Source of the DNA: an uncultured Selenomonadales bacterium
GTDB lineage: Bacteria > Bacillota > Negativicutes > Selenomonadales > Selenomonadaceae
Direction of reading: 5' to 3'
Assembly: GCA_947165145.1 (NCBI GenBank)
Contig: CAMUZG010000002.1
Span: 1 to 64,000, forward strand
DNA: 64,000 bases
The notes under the pieces are model-generated. The model was not told the origin of the DNA and did no database searches. It saw only the letters and a list, made by a program, of their open reading frames with translations. This document shows positions 15,701 to 52,662 of this stretch, one piece after another. Position numbers and translations under genes: made by a program. Each line of letters begins with the position of its first letter. The first letter of the stretch is position 1.

Positions 15701-16693
15701 TTGCAAGAGTTAATTAATATAACAAACAATATGCGCGACAAAAAAATTTTGGTCATCGGCGACATAGTTGCTGATGTTTACGTCGACGGGCGAATCTCCC
15801 GCATCTCACGCGAGGCTCCTGTTCTGATTCTCGAAAAAGCCGGTGAACGCGTCGTTGCAGGCGGTGCTGCCAACGTCATCACGAACGCTGCGACACTCGG
15901 CGCGGAAGTCTATGCTGTCGGTGTTATCGGTGACGACAATTACGCGGAGAGTTTGCGCAACATTTTCAAAGACCTTGACGTTCACATCGAAGGGCTTGTT
16001 CGCGACAAATCTCGTCCGACAATTTCAAAGACGCGCATTATCGCAGGCGGTCGCGCAACCGTCAGTCAACAAATCGTCCGCATTGACAGCGAAAGTCACG
16101 ATCCGCTCAGCAAAAAGGTTGAGGCTGAACTTCTCGCCAAGATTGATAAAATTCTGCCTAATGTCGACGGAGTCATCATGAGCGACTACGGTAGCGGCAC
16201 GATTACTTCCAACGCCCGCAAACTCATCACGCGCTTTGCTGGCAAGAAAAAAATTCCAAGTATCGTCGATTCGCGCTACAACATCGGAAAATTCGAGGGC
16301 ATCGGCTACGTCAAGCAGAACGATTCGGAAGTCGGCGCGTTCGTCGGCTTCGAGCTCAATGACGTGACTGATTTAATCAGCGCGGGCACTCAACTTTTGA
16401 CGAAGTTAAACGTTTCGGGCGTGCTGGTTACTCGCGGCGAAAAAGGCATGAGTTTATTTGAACGCAACGGCGCGACGCATCACATTCCCGTCAGCGACAA
16501 AAGCGAAGTTTTCGACGTGTCGGGCGCGGGCGATACGTGCGTGGCGGCTTTTCTGCTTGCATTGACGGCGGGGGCTCAACCTGCTGTTGCGGCGAAAATT
16601 GCCAACTACGCGTCGGGAATTGCTGTTCGCAAACTCGGTACGGCAACCGTCAGCGCGACCGAACTTATTGCGACTTTGGAGCGTGCAAGATGA
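15701..16693 (+). CDS. rfaE1: D-glycero-beta-D-manno-heptose-7-phosphate kinase
   Basis: This 330-aa PfkB/ribokinase-family enzyme phosphorylates heptose 7-phosphate at C1 in the ADP-heptose pathway for LPS core. It shows ILVIGDIVADVYVDGRISRISREAP at the start, the AGGAANV glycine motif and the catalytic DVSGAGDT box near residue 275. It corresponds to the N-terminal half of the E. coli bifunctional HldE. A TTG start at 15701 is supported by AGGGGGCGAGGA upstream and by the extra N-terminal helix found in the family; ATG 15731 is the alternative. The adenylyltransferase half is the next gene, separated by a repeat-derived hairpin. Confidence 0.9.
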   Translation: MQELINITNNMRDKKILVIGDIVADVYVDGRISRISREAPVLILEKAGERVVAGGAANVITNAATLGAEVYAVGVIGDDNYAESLRNIFKDLDVHIEGLVRDKSRPTISKTRIIAGGRATVSQQIVRIDSESHDPLSKKVEAELLAKIDKILPNVDGVIMSDYGSGTITSNARKLITRFAGKKKIPSIVDSRYNIGKFEGIGYVKQNDSEVGAFVGFELNDVTDLISAGTQLLTKLNVSGVLVTRGEKGMSLFERNGATHHIPVSDKSEVFDVSGAGDTCVAAFLLALTAGAQPAVAAKIANYASGIAVRKLGTATVSATELIATLERAR

Positions 16694-16757
16694 GCTATCA
16701 GCTATCAGCTTTCAGGGGGTACGGTTTTATCTGACAGCTGACCCCTGACAGCTAACT
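16694..16757 (+). repeat. Heptamer repeat with large hairpin between rfaE1 and rfaE2
   Basis: The tract starts with tandem AGCTATC heptamers and ends with CAGCTGACCCC-type copies in inverse orientation. AGCTTTCAGGGG can pair with CCCCTGACAGCT (11 of 12 positions), giving a strong stem inside the operon. It belongs to the dispersed repeat family found at about ten sites here. The hairpin has no T-run, so it may act on RNA stability and not on termination. Confidence 0.65.
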
Positions 16758-18349: not shown

Positions 18350-20341
18350 TTGAAGTTCCTGAAAAGATTTTTCGACGGCGTTCAGCGTGACCTGCGGCTG
18401 TTCGTCTTCGTGTTGCTGTTGTTAGAAATTTATCGCGGGTTATTTATTTTTTTCATGTCGAATTTCATGAGCGCGGACTCCGGCACGGCACAAATCGCAA
18501 CGGCAATGTTCGCGGGCTTGCGGCTGAGTTTGAAGACTGCAGGCGCGGTCACGTTGATTTCGTTCGTGCTCGTGACAATCATCGGCTTAAGTTCGCGAAT
18601 TCGATTGCTCATCGGGATTGTAGCGTCGCTGATATTCTCGTTGCTGTTCATGCTACGATTCCCCTACTACCGCGCGTTTCAATCGACATTCGGGCTTGAA
18701 GTCGTGCAGGGCTTCCACGACGATATTTGGTCAATTATCGTCACGATGTTCCAAGAGTACGGCATTGCGTGGAGATTTTTAGTCGCGTTGCTGTTAACGG
18801 TCGCTTGTATCGCGTTGCTTAGTCGGTTGCTGTTGATTAAGTCGTTCCCCTTGCCGAAACTTGAAGGCACGCTGAAGACTGCGGGCTTTGTCGGCGGACT
18901 CGTCGTGGGAATTTTTCTGTTTGGATTGTTCGTGCGATTCGGCGGCAGTTTCACTTACGGTAGCGGAATTAATTGGGAGAATGCTGGCGTCACGCCCGAT
19001 GAATTTTTGAATGAATGTGTGCTTGACGACGTGCAGGCTCTTTATCGTGCTCGGTCTATGGCGAAACGCATGGAGATTGGCGAAATTTCTGGCGTTGACC
19101 CTGATAAAATTCTTGAGTCCGCGCAGATTGTCGCCGTCAACAAAAATCTCACCGAAAAAAATCTCGCGCCGTATCTTGAACGCAAAACTAAGGGCGAACA
19201 CATTCCCAAGCCGCGACATATTTTTATCATTTTGGGCGAAACGTTCATGCAGTGGCCCATGCTCGGCAAGTACGATGAACTTTTGCTCGCCGAAGGTATC
19301 AAGTCGCTCATTGCGGAGGATAAGTGCTACTACAGCCGAAATTTCATGCCAAACGGCGATTTCACGTCGACTGCGGTAACGGGCATTGTCACCGGTCTTC
19401 CCGACGTCAACATCAAAGTCAACTACCAGGCGCGCACGTTCGAGAAACTTTACATCACGTCAGCGGCTCCCGCGTTCAAGGAGTTGGGCTACAAAGTTGA
19501 TTTTTGGTATACTGGCATGCCCAGTTGGGATTCGATTGCAAAGTTGGCGTTGGCACAGGGTTTCAGCAATTTTTACGGTTGCCCCGATTACAACGCGCCT
19601 AAACAAACGACTTGGGGCACGAAGGACGAAAATCTTTTCAATGCATTGTTGTCGCGACTGAATGGTGAGCCGCCGACCGTTCACGTGATTTTGACGACGA
19701 CCAATCACCCGCCTTACAATCTCGATTTGGCGGCGGAAGGTTTCGATTTGGACGCGACGATTGAGAAGTTGAAAAAATTCCCGAACATCGACGACGTGAA
19801 TCAGCTTGCCGTCGAACTCGGTCATTATTGGTACATGGACGAGGTCATCACGAATTTTGTCCGCGCCGCGAGCGAGCGTTGTCCCGAAAGTTTATTCGTC
19901 ATCACGGGCGACCATGCCGTTCGTTGCGACCCGTCGACGCACCCGACAATTTTTGAGCACCAAAGCGTTCCGTTCGTCCTGTACGGCAACGGCGTTACGA
20001 AGGAAATTCTTCCGCCCGATGTTGTCGGAGATCACATTTCGATTGTCCCGACGCTGATTGAGCTTATCGCGCCGAAAGATTTTGCTTACTACTCGATTGC
20101 GCCGAGTCTTTTTGAAAGTGACGGTGTCGGCTTCAACAACGCGGCATTTCTCACGGCGAAAGTTGCGGGGCAAATCGATTCGGACGTTGTGGAGCTGTTG
20201 CCGCACGTCGCCAGTAACGAGCTTAACTCCGTCAATCTTAACGACGAACGCGAACGAGCCATGAAAATTATCGGTGCAATGAGAACCGTCGGTTGGTGGA
20301 TGCTCACGAATGGTTTGTTCTTCGGCGGCAGTGATAATTGA
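18350..20341 (+). CDS. LtaS-like alkaline-phosphatase-superfamily membrane phosphotransferase
   Basis: The 663-aa protein has about five N-terminal membrane segments (to about residue 200) and a large extracytoplasmic sulfatase-fold domain. Visible metal or nucleophile motifs are LGETFM, GDFTSTAVTG and TGDHAVR, plus HYWYMDEVI. The family includes lipoteichoic acid synthases and phosphoethanolamine or phosphoglycerol transferases. In a didermal cell near LPS genes, phosphoethanolamine or phosphoglycerol addition to LPS or glycan is more likely than LTA synthesis. That is inference. The TTG at 18350 was chosen because GGAAGGGG lies 7 nt upstream. A heptamer repeat follows the stop. Confidence 0.8.
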   Translation: MKFLKRFFDGVQRDLRLFVFVLLLLEIYRGLFIFFMSNFMSADSGTAQIATAMFAGLRLSLKTAGAVTLISFVLVTIIGLSSRIRLLIGIVASLIFSLLFMLRFPYYRAFQSTFGLEVVQGFHDDIWSIIVTMFQEYGIAWRFLVALLLTVACIALLSRLLLIKSFPLPKLEGTLKTAGFVGGLVVGIFLFGLFVRFGGSFTYGSGINWENAGVTPDEFLNECVLDDVQALYRARSMAKRMEIGEISGVDPDKILESAQIVAVNKNLTEKNLAPYLERKTKGEHIPKPRHIFIILGETFMQWPMLGKYDELLLAEGIKSLIAEDKCYYSRNFMPNGDFTSTAVTGIVTGLPDVNIKVNYQARTFEKLYITSAAPAFKELGYKVDFWYTGMPSWDSIAKLALAQGFSNFYGCPDYNAPKQTTWGTKDENLFNALLSRLNGEPPTVHVILTTTNHPPYNLDLAAEGFDLDATIEKLKKFPNIDDVNQLAVELGHYWYMDEVITNFVRAASERCPESLFVITGDHAVRCDPSTHPTIFEHQSVPFVLYGNGVTKEILPPDVVGDHISIVPTLIELIAPKDFAYYSIAPSLFESDGVGFNNAAFLTAKVAGQIDSDVVELLPHVASNELNSVNLNDERERAMKIIGAMRTVGWWMLTNGLFFGGSDN

Positions 20342-20413
20342 TTTTAGGTTATAGCTTATAGCTTTTAGGATTACAATTCCTAATTCCAAATTCCAAATTC
20401 CAAATTGTTAAAA
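20342..20413 (+). repeat. Composite heptamer repeat, complete example
   Basis: Module one is TTATAGCTTATAGCTTTTAGG (7-bp period). Module two is a run of ATTCCAA heptamers ending AAATTG. It then merges into TTAAAAGGGAG, which supplies the ribosome binding site of rmlD. Similar composites occur at 28240, 28734 (inverted), 31299 (inverted), 34950, 49258 and 52630. Confidence 0.8.
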
Positions 20414-20430: not shown

Positions 20431-21273
20431 ATGGTTTTAATCACAGGAATTCTCGGTCAACTCGGCTACGATCTTGCAAAGGAGCTCACGCGTCGCGGTG
20501 TGGAATATATCGCCCCGTCGCTTGAAGAATTGGAGCTGACGACCGAAGCTGGTGCGAAAAATTTTATTCTCGAAAAAAAGCCCGACATAGTTGCTCACTG
20601 CGCGGCGTACACGGCTGTTGACAAGGCGGAGAGCGAAGAAGAACTCGCGCTGACTGTCAACGGATTCGGCACGCGTTGGGTTGCGGAAGCTTGTCGCGAA
20701 GTCGATGCGAAAATGATTTACATCAGCACCGATTACGTTTTCGGCGGCGACGGTCTCCACCCCTACGAAGTCAACGACGAGAAAAAGCCTGTCAACGTCT
20801 ACGGTCGTAGCAAGCTCCTCGGCGAAGACGCGGTCAGCATGATTCTCCACCGCTATTTCATTGTGCGCACGAGTTGGGTTTTCGGAATCAACGGCAACAA
20901 TTTTATCAAGACGATGCTCAAGCTTGCCGAGACGAAAAAGAAATTGAACGTCGTCAACGACCAATTCGGCAGCCCGACTTATACCGTTGACCTTGCGAAG
21001 TTGTTGGCTGATATGGCGGAGACGGAGAAATTCGGCGTCTACCACGCGAGCAACGAAGGTTTCTGCTCATGGTCAGATTTCGCGCGGGAAATTTTTGAGC
21101 AAGCTGGTCTCGACATTGAGGTTGACGGCGTCCCGACGATTGAATATCCGACACCTGCGCGGCGTCCGTTCAATTCGCGACTGAGCAAAAAATCTTTGGA
21201 CGATGCGGGCTTCGACAGACTTCCGCCGTGGCAAGACGCATTGAAAAGATATTTGCTTGAACTCAAAGCGTAA
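20431..21273 (+). CDS. rmlD: dTDP-4-dehydrorhamnose reductase
   Basis: This 280-aa short-chain dehydrogenase-fold enzyme performs the last step of dTDP-L-rhamnose synthesis. The NAD(P) loop is ITGILGQLGYDL, the catalytic part contains STDYVFGGDG and YGRSKLLGE (Tyr-x-x-x-Lys), and the C-terminus has the RmlD pattern ARRPFNSRLSKKSL. ATG 20431 has GGGAGAG upstream. RmlA, RmlB and RmlC are not in the window, so they must be elsewhere. The neighbours fit an O-antigen or core-glycan role. Confidence 0.9.
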   Translation: MVLITGILGQLGYDLAKELTRRGVEYIAPSLEELELTTEAGAKNFILEKKPDIVAHCAAYTAVDKAESEEELALTVNGFGTRWVAEACREVDAKMIYISTDYVFGGDGLHPYEVNDEKKPVNVYGRSKLLGEDAVSMILHRYFIVRTSWVFGINGNNFIKTMLKLAETKKKLNVVNDQFGSPTYTVDLAKLLADMAETEKFGVYHASNEGFCSWSDFAREIFEQAGLDIEVDGVPTIEYPTPARRPFNSRLSKKSLDDAGFDRLPPWQDALKRYLLELKA

Positions 21274-21304
21274 TAATTTGGAATTTGAAATGGAAGGCGA
21301 TTTG

Positions 21305-22730: not shown

Positions 22731-24065
22731 ATGGCAATGACAATGAGCGAAAAAATTCTCGCACGACACGCGGGACTTGACGCCGTCGAAGCAGGTCAAC
22801 TGATAATCTGCGATCTCGACCTCGTCATGGCTAACGACGTGACTGGTCCGCCGTCAATCAAAGAGTTTGAGAAAATCGGACGCCCCGTTTTCGACGCAAA
22901 CAAAATCGCACTGGTTCCCGACCACTTTCAACCTGCCAAAGACATCAAAAGCGCAGACCTCGCCAAAACCATGCGCGACTTCGCACGCAAAAATAAAATT
23001 AAATATTATTTCGAACAGGGACGCGTCGGCATTGAACACGTCATTTTGCCCGAATTCGGCATTGTCGCCCCGGGCATGTTGATTATCGGCGCGGACAGCC
23101 ACACTTGCACTTACGGCGCGGTTAACGCATTTTCGACGGGCGTCGGCACAACTGACTTGGCTGTCGGTTTGGCGACTGGTAAAGCTTGGTTCAAAGTCCC
23201 CGAAGCCATTAACGTTCACTTGACGGGCGAGAAGCCTAAGAACATTTGCGGCAAGGACGTTATTCTTACGCTCATCGGCAAAATCGGCGTCGACGGCGCA
23301 CTTTACAAGGCTCTCGAATTCACAGGCGAAGGCGTCAACGAACTTTCAATGACTGACCGCTTGACGATCTCGAACATGGCGATTGAGGCGGGCGCGAAAG
23401 CTGGCGTCTTCCCGTTCGACGAACGCACGAAGTTTTACGTTGCCAACCGCGTCAAGAAGCCGTTTGAGCCTATTTACGCTGACGAAGATGCAGAATACTG
23501 CGCGACTGTCGAAATCAATTTGAGCGAACTGAAACCCGTCGTTGCACTGCCTCATTTGCCTGAAAACGTCAAACCTGTTGACGAACTCGGCGAAATAAAA
23601 ATCAATCAAGTCGTCATCGGTTCCTGCACGAACGGTCGCCTTGAGGATTTGAGCATTGCGGCGGGAATTCTGCGCGGACGCAAAGTTCATCCCGACGTTC
23701 GCTGCATAATCATTCCTGGCAGTCAAGAAATTTACAAAGAAGCTATGCGTTGCCGTTGGATTGAAATTTTTATTGACGCGGGCTGTGTCGTGAGCTGTCC
23801 GACTTGCGGACCGTGTCTCGGCGGCTACATGGGCATTTTGAGCGCGGGCGAACGTTGTGTTTCGACGACCAATCGCAATTTCCGTGGACGCATGGGACAC
23901 GTTGACAGCGAAGTTTATTTGGCAAGCCCGTTCGTTGCGGCGGCATCTGCAATCACTGGAAAAATTTCTACGCCGGAGGAGGCAATTCAATTTGGAATTA
24001 GGAATTTGGAATTTGGAATTAAAATTCCTAAAAGTTCAAAGCTAATTCGGAATGAGGAATGTTAA
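22731..24065 (+). CDS. leuC: 3-isopropylmalate dehydratase large subunit
   Basis: The 444-aa aconitase-family subunit isomerises 2- to 3-isopropylmalate in leucine synthesis with LeuD. The [4Fe-4S] cysteines lie in GSCTNGR (about residue 302) and [10 protein letters not shown] (about 361-367). The size matches the short, archaeal-type LeuC (about 420 aa) plus a tail. The last ~25 residues (from [11 protein letters not shown]) are encoded by the ATTCC/GGAAT heptamer repeat that has run into the gene, so this tail is not ancestral. ATG 22731 follows GGGAGG. leuD starts at the base after the stop. Homoaconitase-like substrates are possible but less likely. Confidence 0.92.
23984..24050 (+). repeat. 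Heptamer repeat inside the leuC 3' end
   Basis: TTGGAAT/TAGGAAT heptamers repeat through the last 70 bases of leuC and are translated. This is the same sequence class as the intergenic ATTCCAA/ATTCCTA module, in inverted orientation. Confidence 0.8.
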
Positions 24066-28239: not shown

Positions 28240-28290
28240 TTAACTGTCAGCTATCAGCTGTCAGCATGATAACTCCAAACTGTTAAAACG
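28240..28290 (+). repeat. Heptamer repeat between kinase and regulator genes
   Basis: TGTCAGCTATCAGCTGTCAGC (split as 7-bp units) followed by AACTCCAAACTGTTAAAACGGGGG. The end supplies the ribosome binding site of the gene at 28302. Same order of modules as at 20342. Confidence 0.65.
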
Positions 28291-28301
28291 GGGGCGATAA
28301 C

Positions 28302-28736
28302 GTGAGTGCCAAGGACACCGCTCAGCTTGAAAACGATTTGACTGCTTCGGACGACGTGAAAAAATTCCTGACCGATAACGCGGAAAATCTTCGGGAATTC
28401 ACGTTGGCGCAGTATCTGAAGAAATTGCTTGACGAAAAAAATTTGACGCGTGCGCAAGTGATTCGCGATTCGCAACTGGACGAAGGTTACGCTCAACACA
28501 TTTTCGGCGGCAGAAAAAATCCTTCGCGCGAAAAAATTTTGTCGCTCGCTTTGGCAATGAAACTGTCGCCCAAAGAGGCTGATTATCTTTTGTACTACGC
28601 GGGGCACGAAAAACTTTACGCCCGCAACAGCCGCGACGATGTGATTGCTTACGCGCTGAACACGCAGAAAACCGTTTTGCAGACGAACGAGCTTTTGACG
28701 GACTTGCAGTTAAAGCCTTTGCTTGACGACAATTAG
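28302..28736 (+). CDS. Helix-turn-helix regulator-like protein
   Basis: The 144-aa protein contains an XRE-like HTH (LTRAQVIRDSQLDEGYAQHI, about residues 48-67, then GGRKNPSREKILSLALAMKL). The rest is helical. GTG 28302 follows GGGGG by 8 nt. It is divergent from the Ser/Thr kinase gene, separated by a heptamer repeat. This pairing suggests that the kinase phosphorylates the regulator or that the regulator controls the kinase; both are inference. Confidence 0.7.
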   Translation: MSAKDTAQLENDLTASDDVKKFLTDNAENLREFTLAQYLKKLLDEKNLTRAQVIRDSQLDEGYAQHIFGGRKNPSREKILSLALAMKLSPKEADYLLYYAGHEKLYARNSRDDVIAYALNTQKTVLQTNELLTDLQLKPLLDDN

Positions 28737-28783
28737 GAATTAGGAATTAAGAACCTATAAGCTATAAGCTAACAGCTAAAAAA
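28734..28783 (-). repeat. Heptamer repeat, inverted copy
   Basis: GGAATTAGGAATTAAG followed by CTATAAGCTATAAGCTAACAGC. It is the reverse orientation of the element at 20342 and lies between two convergent genes, where it can form neither gene's leader. Confidence 0.7.
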
Positions 28784-34360: not shown

Positions 34361-34951
34361 ATGAACAGAAGAAATTTTTTTGAACTCGCGGCGTTGACGC
34401 TTGCGGGTTTCTTTTTTGGCAACGAAAAAGCGTCCGCCGATTACGTCTTAGATACTTGGGAACCGCCGATAAAAAAATTATTTTTGAAGTTCACGGAGTA
34501 CGAAGAACGCTCGACGACCGAGGTTATCGTGATTCACCACGCGGGCTTCCCCGACGCCGACAAAGATTCTTCCGCCGAAGACATTCACAAATTTCATCAA
34601 GAAGTCAACGGTTGGGCGGGTATCGGCTATCACTACGTCATTCGCAAGGACGGCACGATTGAACAAGGTCGTCGCCCGAAAGCTGTCGGTGCTCACGCCT
34701 ATCAGCACAACAAAAATTCAATCGGGATTTGCGTCGCGGGAAATTTCAATCTTGCCAAACCGAACACTAAGCAAATGGAATCGCTAAAACTTCTGACGGC
34801 GTGGCTTTGTAAAAAATATCGGCTCAACCCGATGAGTAAAGGCGTTATCGTCGGGCACAGAGACTTTAACGACACGGCTTGCCCAGGCGACAATCTTTAC
34901 TCGCGATTGGGCGAAGTGCGGCGTTGGTGTCGAGATTTTCTCAAGGATTAG
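34361..34951 (+). CDS. N-acetylmuramoyl-L-alanine amidase, PGRP-like, with twin-arginine signal
   Basis: The 196-aa enzyme should cut the bond between muramic acid and the stem peptide in peptidoglycan. Zinc ligands are in VIVIHHAGF and GHRDFNDTACPG; the middle has YHYVIRKDGTIEQGR. The N-terminus is MNRRNFFELAALTLAGFFFG, with an RRNFF twin-arginine motif and a hydrophobic stretch, then a likely cleavage after KASA. Tat export is inferred. Start ATG 34361. It has AAGGAG about 10 nt upstream, embedded in the duplicated phosphatase tail. Confidence 0.9.
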   Translation: MNRRNFFELAALTLAGFFFGNEKASADYVLDTWEPPIKKLFLKFTEYEERSTTEVIVIHHAGFPDADKDSSAEDIHKFHQEVNGWAGIGYHYVIRKDGTIEQGRRPKAVGAHAYQHNKNSIGICVAGNFNLAKPNTKQMESLKLLTAWLCKKYRLNPMSKGVIVGHRDFNDTACPGDNLYSRLGEVRRWCRDFLKD

Positions 34952-35012
34952 CTTTAAGCTGTTAGCTTTTAGGTTTTTAACTCCTAATTCCAAATTCCTA
35001 ATTCCAAATTGA
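34950..35012 (+). repeat. Composite heptamer repeat before rpsO
   Basis: TTTAAGCTGTTAGCTTTTAGG followed by AACTCCTAATTCCAAATTCC and a second CTAATTCCAAATTG unit. Forward orientation, directly upstream of the rpsO promoter. Confidence 0.8.
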
Positions 35013-42548: not shown

Positions 42549-42941
42549 ATGGCAATGAAAAAATTTAACGTCACCGTAAACGGTACGACCTACGAAGTCG
42601 AAGTCGAAGAAGTCAAAGCGGCGGGCGGCGCACCTAAGGCGGCACCTGCACCGAAGGCGGCACCTGCACCTGCTCCCGCACCGAAAGCGGCTCCTGCAGC
42701 TGCTCCAAAAGTTGCGGCGGGCGCGGGTGAACACTCAATCGATGCTCCAATGCCCGGCAAAGTTGTCAAGCTTGTCGCTAATGAAGGCGCAACAGTCAAA
42801 GCCGGCGAAGTTTTGCTGATTCTCGAAGCAATGAAAATGCAGAACGAAATCACCGCAGACGCTGACGGCACCGTCAAAAAGTTCAACGTTGCGGCAGGAC
42901 AATCCGTCAAAGCTCACGAGTCGCTTGTCATTCTCGGCTGA
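42549..42941 (+). CDS. mmdC: Biotin carrier (gamma) subunit of methylmalonyl-CoA decarboxylase
   Basis: The 130-aa carrier has a folded N-terminus ([20 protein letters not shown]), a Pro/Ala hinge (about 25-58) and a biotinyl domain with EAMKM (biotin on Lys96). The hinge lets the biotin travel between alpha and beta subunits. ATG 42549 follows GGAGG. A terminator follows directly, so the beta subunit is not in this operon. Confidence 0.93.
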
Positions 42942-48225: not shown

Positions 48226-49260
48226 GTGAGAAAAAAATTTATAGCGGGCGCGGCGATTCTCGCGTTGCTGATGAATTCGCCGCAAGTCTCGGCGGACGAC
48301 GACGTTGTAATTTTCGGCGGGGAATTTGACGACGAAGCCGATCAACCTGCACCAAAGAAAATCGAAAAGCCTAAACCCGTCGAGCAACCTAAACCCGTCA
48401 AAGAAGTTCCTAAGCCCGTCGAGCAACCTAAGCCCGTCGAACAATCTAAACCCGTCGAACAACCTAAACCCGTCGAACAATCTAAACCCGTCGAACAACC
48501 TAAACCCGTCGAACAACCTAAACCCGTCGAACAACCTAAACAAATTGAAGTAGATCGACCGTTCGAGCAGCCAACGGAAATTTCTGGCGGACAAGAACCC
48601 GTCAAAGTAGTGCCACCGCCCGCGCAGATAATCAATCAACCGAAACCCGAACCTATCACTGAGCCGCCGCAACAAATTCAACCGCGACAAATTCAACCGC
48701 GACAAGTTCAGCCGCCGCAGAAATTGAAAGTGCTCAAGCCGCGTTTCATCAAGTTGGCGGTCGACGAAACGTACACTTACTATCTGGACAAAAATTCCGT
48801 GCAGTGGCGCAAGATGCCGTACTCGTCGAGCGAATACATTGCTGACGTTTGGATTCGTTTGGTTGAGCGTGCGCCCAAAAAGCTTGACGGTGACATGGCG
48901 GCTTACGGCGAGGACAATTTCAGCGCGGAAATTGCTTTGGCACGCGACAAAGGCTATCAGTATGCGCCCGAAGATTTGCAGGTTTTGCGCAGTCAAGCTT
49001 ACGTGTTGGAGCATTATTATCTGCGCCCGAAGACAAATCAAGTGCAATTTCTCTGTGAGCTGGAAGTTTTTGGTCGTCCTCAGAACACGATTAACGAACG
49101 CGCTTACGATTACAAGAATTGGGAAAACCTGGTGCCCGGCAGCGTTGAATCGGTTGTGTACGAGGCGACGATTAAAATTATCGGCAAGTCGAAGGCAAGC
49201 GAACGCGGTCACATGACTTTTAGCGATATGCTTGACGAATACTTGAGAATTTCTCTGTGA
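48226..49260 (+). CDS. Secreted Pro-rich repeat protein
   Basis: The 344-aa product has a signal peptide (KKFIAGAAILALLMNSPQVSA), an acidic start, then a KPVEQP-type hexapeptide repeat (about residues 47-106), a Pro/Gln linker and a conserved-looking domain from about 170 (FIKLAVDETYTYYLDKNSVQW, then ADVWIRLVE). The C-terminal domain resembles small beta domains seen in other secreted proteins of this window, but no family is named. GTG 48226 follows AGGA. The repeat could span peptidoglycan, holding the domain near the outer membrane. Confidence 0.75.
   Translation: MRKKFIAGAAILALLMNSPQVSADDDVVIFGGEFDDEADQPAPKKIEKPKPVEQPKPVKEVPKPVEQPKPVEQSKPVEQPKPVEQSKPVEQPKPVEQPKPVEQPKQIEVDRPFEQPTEISGGQEPVKVVPPPAQIINQPKPEPITEPPQQIQPRQIQPRQVQPPQKLKVLKPRFIKLAVDETYTYYLDKNSVQWRKMPYSSSEYIADVWIRLVERAPKKLDGDMAAYGEDNFSAEIALARDKGYQYAPEDLQVLRSQAYVLEHYYLRPKTNQVQFLCELEVFGRPQNTINERAYDYKNWENLVPGSVESVVYEATIKIIGKSKASERGHMTFSDMLDEYLRISL
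48367..48540 (+). repeat. 18-bp minisatellite coding KPVEQP
   Basis: CCTAAACCCGTCGAACAA and close variants repeat about nine times in frame. Some units differ by one codon (CAATCT for CAACCT). An in-frame repeat of this kind can change length by slippage without breaking the gene. Confidence 0.9.
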
Positions 49261-52185: not shown

Positions 52186-52632
52186 ATGAAAAAATTTAAA
52201 TTCCAACTTGAAACGTTGCTGAAGGTCACCAAACGCAAGAAGGACGACGCTGAACAACAATTTGCCGAGTCATCGCGCAAGCTAGAGGAATATCGCGCCC
52301 AACTGCAAGTTTTAATGCGTGAACTGTCCGAAGGTCAAGCAGAGTTCGCCGAAAAGACTTCCGCAGGCAAAACAATTACCGTTGACGTGATAATGATGTA
52401 CAACCAATTTTTCAACTGGAAACGTCATCAAATCGAACAGCAGCAGGATTTAATCATCAAGGCGACACAGGACAAGCAACAGAAGCTGAAACTTTTGATG
52501 AAGGTTATGACGTACCTAAAGAGCATTGAGCAACTGAAAGAAAAGCGGCTCAATGAGTACAACGCGGAATTGCTTTTCGAGGAACAAAAGATGCTTGACG
52601 AAATCGGATTGCAACTTTCCATGCGTCACTAA
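52186..52632 (+). CDS. fliJ: Flagellar export chaperone FliJ
   Basis: The 148-aa protein is almost entirely coiled coil, as FliJ is. It starts MKKFKFQLETLLKVTKRKKD, a family pattern, and continues with heptads to the end. FliJ sits in the ATPase ring like a rotor stalk and escorts export chaperones. Its start lies directly after fliI. Confidence 0.88.
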   Translation: MKKFKFQLETLLKVTKRKKDDAEQQFAESSRKLEEYRAQLQVLMRELSEGQAEFAEKTSAGKTITVDVIMMYNQFFNWKRHQIEQQQDLIIKATQDKQQKLKLLMKVMTYLKSIEQLKEKRLNEYNAELLFEEQKMLDEIGLQLSMRH

Positions 52633-52662
52633 TTCCTAATTCCTAATTCCACATTGTTAAAA
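52630..52662 (+). repeat. Heptamer repeat, short form
   Basis: Three AATTCCT heptamers plus CACATTGTTAAAAAGGAG. Only module two is present; its end gives the ribosome binding site of the transglycosylase gene. Confidence 0.75.

Follow-up and report, generated by a model that had tools for sequence, protein, structure and literature searches.

Short tandemly repeated repetitive sequences (STRR) of cyanobacteria are tandem arrays of heptamers that are dispersed over the genome in intergenic regions, and the repeats considered here are alike in these respects. To our knowledge, STRR have never been described as two-armed, looped elements or as in-frame replacements of coding sequence. The TAACTGA direct repeats of Beggiatoaceae, Cyanobacteria and Bacteroidetes (MacGregor 2015, PMC4679880) also form many dispersed intergenic sets of a 7-bp unit, located mostly just upstream of start codons, in some cases on the upstream stop codon, with a scattered phylogeny, as is found here. 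The TAACTGA sets are direct repeats, with one inverted set reported, near-variants are rare and a Shine-Dalgarno sequence is found in only about 10% of the repeat-bearing gaps (PMC4679880). In contrast, the repeats described below form quasi-palindromes and multi-unit composites with variable spacers, display an end that bears a Shine-Dalgarno sequence and replace sequence in frame in housekeeping genes. Their units, i.e., GGAATnn, AGCTnnn and TAGGTTT, differ from TAACTGA.

Another heptameric group, the GGGNATC and GGGGA(C/T)T repeats of Xanthomonas and Nostoc (Rehm 2015, PMC4692102), is similar in that about 90% of the repeats in Xanthomonas are intergenic and some form inverted pairs, but differs in being G-rich and G-quadruplex-forming. 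Furthermore, 90% are found between the same genes in two xanthomonads (PMC4692102), whereas here both occupancy and unit vary between sister species. The Rickettsia palindromic elements (reviewed in PMC10969869) resemble the present repeats in being short palindromes of several families that reside in frame in unrelated genes without destroying them. However, these elements are about 150 bp long and have no heptamer arrays; the repeats described here instead have 7-bp units, take the place of native residues and lie for the most part between genes.

The window, i.e., the whole stretch of 64,000 nucleotides that was analysed, comprises bases 1−64000 of contig 2 of a 1.94-Mb metagenome-assembled genome (G000; 43 contigs, 82.8% complete). 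The main sample was 844 kb of this genome (the window and 39 other stretches) and a further 354 kb was held out, such that nothing was derived from it; together the two samples make up 1.2 Mb, about 62% of the genome. Genes were called using a home-made hexamer caller, and tracts were detected with Tandem Repeats Finder (TRF), a lag-7 scan and a two-unit motif scan; ten window coordinates were also read directly. The sister genomes used for comparison are partly fragmented. Because a Selenomonadaceae contig from sheep duodenum (L128) displays mostly 77−81% identity to the window across kilobases, the host is, on sequence grounds, most likely an uncultured Selenomonadaceae of the ruminant gut.

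A preliminary description of the window had reported ten tracts combining two 7-bp modules and had proposed a genome-wide search. The 7-bp repeats are real and genome-wide: 103 period-7 tracts were found in the 844 kb and 43 in the hold-out, i.e., 146 in 1.2 Mb, and intergenic DNA accounts for 81% (main sample) and 84% (hold-out) of the tract bases, compared to 8.4% and 8.3% of the genome, respectively. Period 7 dominates, with its 103 tracts in 844 kb against 0−12 at each of periods 5, 6, 8−13 and 15. In 94 kb of intergenic DNA the motif ATTCC..ATTCC occurs 337 times (0.4 in dinucleotide shuffles), AGCT...AGCT 128 times (2.4) and TAGG...TAGG 95 times (0.9), and lag-7 tracts number 114 (0.2). 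The motifs are thus almost absent from shuffled intergenic DNA, and the lack of excess that would have spoken against the preliminary description was not observed. Across G000, AATTCCAAATTCC occurs 131 times and its reversed control 0 times. Two features of bacterial heptameric repeats, i.e., tandem 7-bp units above chance and genome-wide, mainly intergenic dispersal, were therefore found. An assembly artefact is an unlikely source, because copies inside genes read in frame and the same class of repeat is found in sister species and named genomes.

Within the window, matches to the two-unit motifs are almost confined to the ten reported sites (Table 1), the exceptions being 48210 (at a gene edge) and 62952 (coding). 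TRF reports period-7 arrays at nearly all ten. Nine of these sites are clear, while that at 21270 is weak, and most are composites. No Rfam match at gathering score and no tRNA match was found in the window. A stable RNA hairpin is not a common feature of the sites; most z-scores are weak and a few are near −3.

Table 1. Heptamer elements in the window.
Position	Site as first reported	Strand	Element	Relation to genes
16690..16756	16694	.	AGCTATC-type quasi-hairpin: left arm AGCTATC AGCTATC AGCTTTC, right arm CTGACAGCTGACCCCTGACAGCTAAC	starts at stop codon of gene 15701−16693, ends just before Shine-Dalgarno of 16772
20339..20412	20342	.	composite: TTAGGTTATAGCTTATAGCTTTTAGG arm, loop ATTACA, ATTCCTA/ATTCCAA arm, end AATTGTTAAAAGGG (common Shine-Dalgarno-bearing end)	
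21273..21291	21270	.	marginal remnant, about two degenerate GGAATTW units	ahead of serC-like gene
23986..24060	23984	.	GGAATTW array with AGCT/GGAAT remnants	in frame, as C-terminus of leuC-like gene (aconitase family; ORF 22731−24065)
28240..28265	28240	.	AGCTATC/AGCTGTC tract	divergent gap
28729..28781	28734	.	composite: GGAATTA arm, then CCTATAAGCTATAAGCT arm	convergent gene pair; overlaps upstream stop codon
31296..31354	31299	.	composite: GGAATTA arm, loop, CCTAAAACCTATAAGCTATAAGCT arm	overlaps stop codon of hybrid histidine kinase gene, ends ahead of Shine-Dalgarno of STAS-domain gene
34948..35011	34950	.	composite: TTAGCTT arm, TTTTAGG, then ACTCCTA/ATTCCAA arm	starts at amidase gene stop codon
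49258..49320	49258	.	composite: TTAGCTT arm, TTAGGATTACAA, ACTCCTA/ACTCCAA/ATTCCTA arm, end AACTGTTAGAAGG	
52625..52656	52630	.	right half-element: CTAATTC x3, then ACATTGTTAAAAAGGAG	from stop codon to next start

Other features of the window include a gene (412−5007, minus strand) for a 1531-residue single-chain Type ISP restriction-modification enzyme with Mrr-like nuclease, helicase, methylase and Type_ISP_C specificity domains; enzymes of this type recognise asymmetric sites of 6−7 bp. An 18-bp unit is repeated 9.8 times at 48362−48541 within a 344-residue ORF (48226−49260) that has no Pfam match, and Ala/Pro-rich coding repeats are found at 42630−42706 in a gene for a biotin-lipoyl carrier protein.

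The anatomy of all sites indicates that the ATTCCAA and AGCTTAT modules are arms of two-armed or composite elements. The original picture of a dispersed, composite 7-bp repeat in both orientations is retained, but two separate modules are too simple a description: ATTCC and GGAAT units are the two strands of a single arm type, and both modules belong to one quasi-palindromic family. Its general plan is [GGAATnn]n, loop, [ATTCCnn]n, accompanied by half-elements and by composites with AGCTnnn or TAGGTTT arms. The basic element is roughly 60−85 bp long and is composed of CAATTwGG(AATTwGG)n, a loop and ATTCC(wAATTCC)n, often with AATTG(T/A)TARAAGG at the end. In the G000 samples 51 copies are two-armed; each arm typically has four units, and the loops, the longer of which frequently contain TGACGC, measure 3−24 nt (usually 4−17). 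The palindromic form known from Rickettsia palindromic elements and MITEs is thus seen in these 51, many other copies being halves or composites. The order of units is common across elements beyond what composition predicts (2.34 vs 2.09 ± 0.05 identical units of six), a modest excess that could in part stem from recombination among old copies.

The hairpins of the two-armed elements in G000 are 5-bp helices interrupted every 7 nt. Compensatory pairing of the variable 2-nt spacers between opposite arms was considered and rejected, as G000 displays the opposite: the spacers of the 51 elements are complementary less often than expected by chance (0.150 vs 0.303; hold-out p 0.002; p 0.017 with similar elements removed), as if perfect palindromes were selected against in this genome. 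The small sets of elements from other species and phyla did not show the effect, and we therefore make no general claim about spacer complementarity.

A minor 8-bp family, TAACCTnn / AGGTTAnn, is found beside the 7-bp family at L208:6800−6868, L211:15318−15386, L226:12665−12743 and ten other places; its longest copies are two-armed like the 7-bp elements. Twelve of the 13 period-8 tracts are intergenic, and one of the 13 (L352:16170) looks unrelated. The repeat period may equal a paired core of 5 or 6 nucleotides plus a 2-nt spacer.

In gaps between co-directional genes the tracts occupy the stretch from the stop codon to the Shine-Dalgarno sequence, in agreement with the initial remark that several run into the next ribosome binding site. 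Among 94 tracts in such gaps, 44 end 13−25 nt ahead of the start codon (14.5 expected for uniform placement) and 44 begin directly at the stop codon, compared to 24 expected. Many tracts terminate in the same non-repeat sequence, TTG(T/A)TARAAGG, in which the Shine-Dalgarno sequence starts; the shorter form TTG[TA]TA[AG]AA is found at 19 of 72 genes with upstream heptamers and at one of 665 without (hold-out, 8/27 and 0/279). This end seems to be part of the element itself, because it also follows copies away from start codons, including that in rpoB.

Alternatively, such precise placement and the common end may have been selected for a function in translation: an RNA-binding protein would recognise the repeat and its Shine-Dalgarno end, or the repeat would serve as an intercistronic spacer or standby site. 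A role in RNA-level control was proposed by MacGregor for the similarly placed TAACTGA repeats (PMC4679880). However, there is no preferred orientation relative to the next gene (p 0.27−1), a point the preliminary description had raised; RNA structure is weak or absent at most window sites, copies are found also between convergent genes and within coding regions, and species of one genus carry between 0 and 359 copies. Taken together, we regard translational or post-transcriptional control as a rather unlikely explanation.

The statement that the repeats are mostly found between genes holds overall, but not for the leuC site of Table 1 or for other copies that lie in frame in housekeeping genes. 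The genes harboring in-frame copies have Pfam matches for RNA polymerase beta, DNA polymerase III alpha (finger domain), a UvrD-type helicase-nuclease, a peptidase U32, a TPP enzyme resembling IorA, an amidotransferase resembling CobB, a radical-SAM protein and LeuC. Full hairpins replace native residues in rpoB, dnaE and the addA-like (UvrD/AddA-like), U32-peptidase and radical-SAM genes. RpoB homologues with solved structures align to residue 1060 and again from 1090, having about 2 residues where this protein has 29. In dnaE, a native segment of about 33 bp (FIxxKxGxxxxxYLH in 13/13 same-genus relatives compared) is replaced by a hairpin of about 81 bp in G000. This dnaE element (L047:13137−13198) replaces a segment that is conserved in the same-genus DnaE proteins compared, reading GKHGxK in most relatives; contig 3 has another DNA polymerase III alpha-like match, which is more distant. 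Only two arm substitutions separate the rpoB element from that in dnaE, the main difference being in the loop; such similarity is hard to account for without copying of whole elements.

In-frame residence, as in Rickettsia palindromic elements (PMC10969869) and MITEs, together with the quasi-palindromic form and the burst-like copy number in some species, would be consistent with mobilisation by a dedicated, unrecognised enzyme, i.e., a MITE-like family whose autonomous partner is absent from the assembly or is an unknown protein. Yet, no target-site duplication or clean insertion is visible at the compared sites, where dnaE and iorA display replacement of native sequence, and Y1_Tnp (PF01797; Y1/RAYT, TnpA-REP), the transposase that a REP/RAYT system calls for, has no match in the 82.8% complete G000. 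We consider this explanation very doubtful. A reverse transcriptase as a correlate of the repeats is not supported either; the sole copy in G000 has no counterpart in the heptamer-rich G015.

Orthologous sites in sister species are filled differently. In iorA, heptamers are found in G000 and G015, while G010 and G012 have ordinary codons of equal length. The linker in cobB is non-repeat in G001 and consists of a different period-7 filler in each of five other species: GGAATTW (G000), ATTCCTA (G015), CCACTAA (G014), CCATTTC (G012) and TTGTCCC (G010). Between leuC and leuD there is no gap in G010 and G012, where the genes overlap, while G000, G015 and G013 have differing composites. At the U32 linker, hairpins are present in G000 as well as G015, G012 has a short tract, and G010 and G005 have nothing. 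Time and again it is the same dispensable positions that are filled, each species using its own typical set of units. That related species carry different 7-base modules at the same spots suggests a spreading or self-copying repeat rather than a regulator.

Within the family the motif was seen in just 3 of the 30 genera sampled, but GGAATTW tracts are found in many phyla, including a cyanobacterium. Since these tracts span phyla while module sets vary between species of one genus, the proposed status as an independent version of the cyanobacterial repeats is doubtful, although the likeness in kind to cyanobacterial and other bacterial heptamer repeats stands. The genomes with these tracts also harbor further heptamer units (e.g., CAATTTT, AACTGTC, CACCTGA, AACTTCC and TAATTCG), often in inverted pairs, in many phyla (genome_contigs loci L050−L164).

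The different fillers of the one cobB linker, the strict dominance of period 7 and the variable copy numbers of tracts would also be expected of ordinary simple-sequence repeats that arise locally, at unconstrained sites and without copying between sites, by polymerase slippage with a favoured 7-nt step. Heptamer over-representation across bacteria has earlier been ascribed to slippage, at least in the older work as cited in PMC4692102 and PMC4679880. Slippage is nevertheless unlikely here: within one genome, well over a hundred sites draw on the same handful of units, which recur in other phyla; different sites also agree in their non-repeat loops and ends; rpoB and dnaE carry a near-identical element; a local process would not be expected to yield paired inverted arms with loops; and a minor 8-bp family also exists.

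The common unit order, loop motifs and non-repeat end together with the near-identical rpoB and dnaE arms point to whole-element copying. On balance we slightly favour a dispersed, non-autonomous family that is copied as whole elements, remodelled in its arms by 7 bp at a time and retained at tolerated, dispensable sites. Copies would be pasted through recombination or template switching on short common modules, with no DDE or Y1 transposase involved, and arms would lengthen and shorten in 7-bp steps. Selection would leave copies at dispensable positions, i.e., gaps between stop codon and ribosome binding site, linkers, surface loops and C-termini, and where the copied end carries a Shine-Dalgarno sequence it may replace that of the gene itself. 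The equal-length replacement in iorA, which is unlike a classical insertion, counts against such a copying family, as do the negative searches for a mobilising enzyme (Y1_Tnp in the incomplete G000, a consistent reverse transcriptase) and for target-site duplications at the compared sites. A quite improbable alternative is a dedicated activity that introduces period-7 quasi-hairpins at dispensable positions, e.g., through templated synthesis or repair with a template or preferred unit that changes between species; the cobB linker would then acquire a different array in each species and units would be concerted genome-wide, even in rpoB and dnaE.

Heptamer over-representation and the TAACTGA and GGGNATC repeats (PMC4692102, PMC4679880) as well as the in-frame palindromes of Rickettsia (PMC10969869) are already published. 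In the literature searched, there appears to be no description of quasi-palindromic heptamer arms combined with an end that bears a Shine-Dalgarno sequence and with in-frame replacement in rpoB and dnaE, and a search for the unit sequences and their typical peptides found no paper.

Heptameric repeats are over-represented in many bacteria, yet their origin has so far not been explained convincingly. In this genus, an orthologous site may be empty in one sister species and hold one or another unit in others, and the native sequence is known for the in-frame copies in rpoB and dnaE. With such contrasts at orthologous sites, slippage, copying and selection become directly distinguishable. The observations suggest that repeats of this kind can reshape conserved proteins and provide ribosome binding sites.
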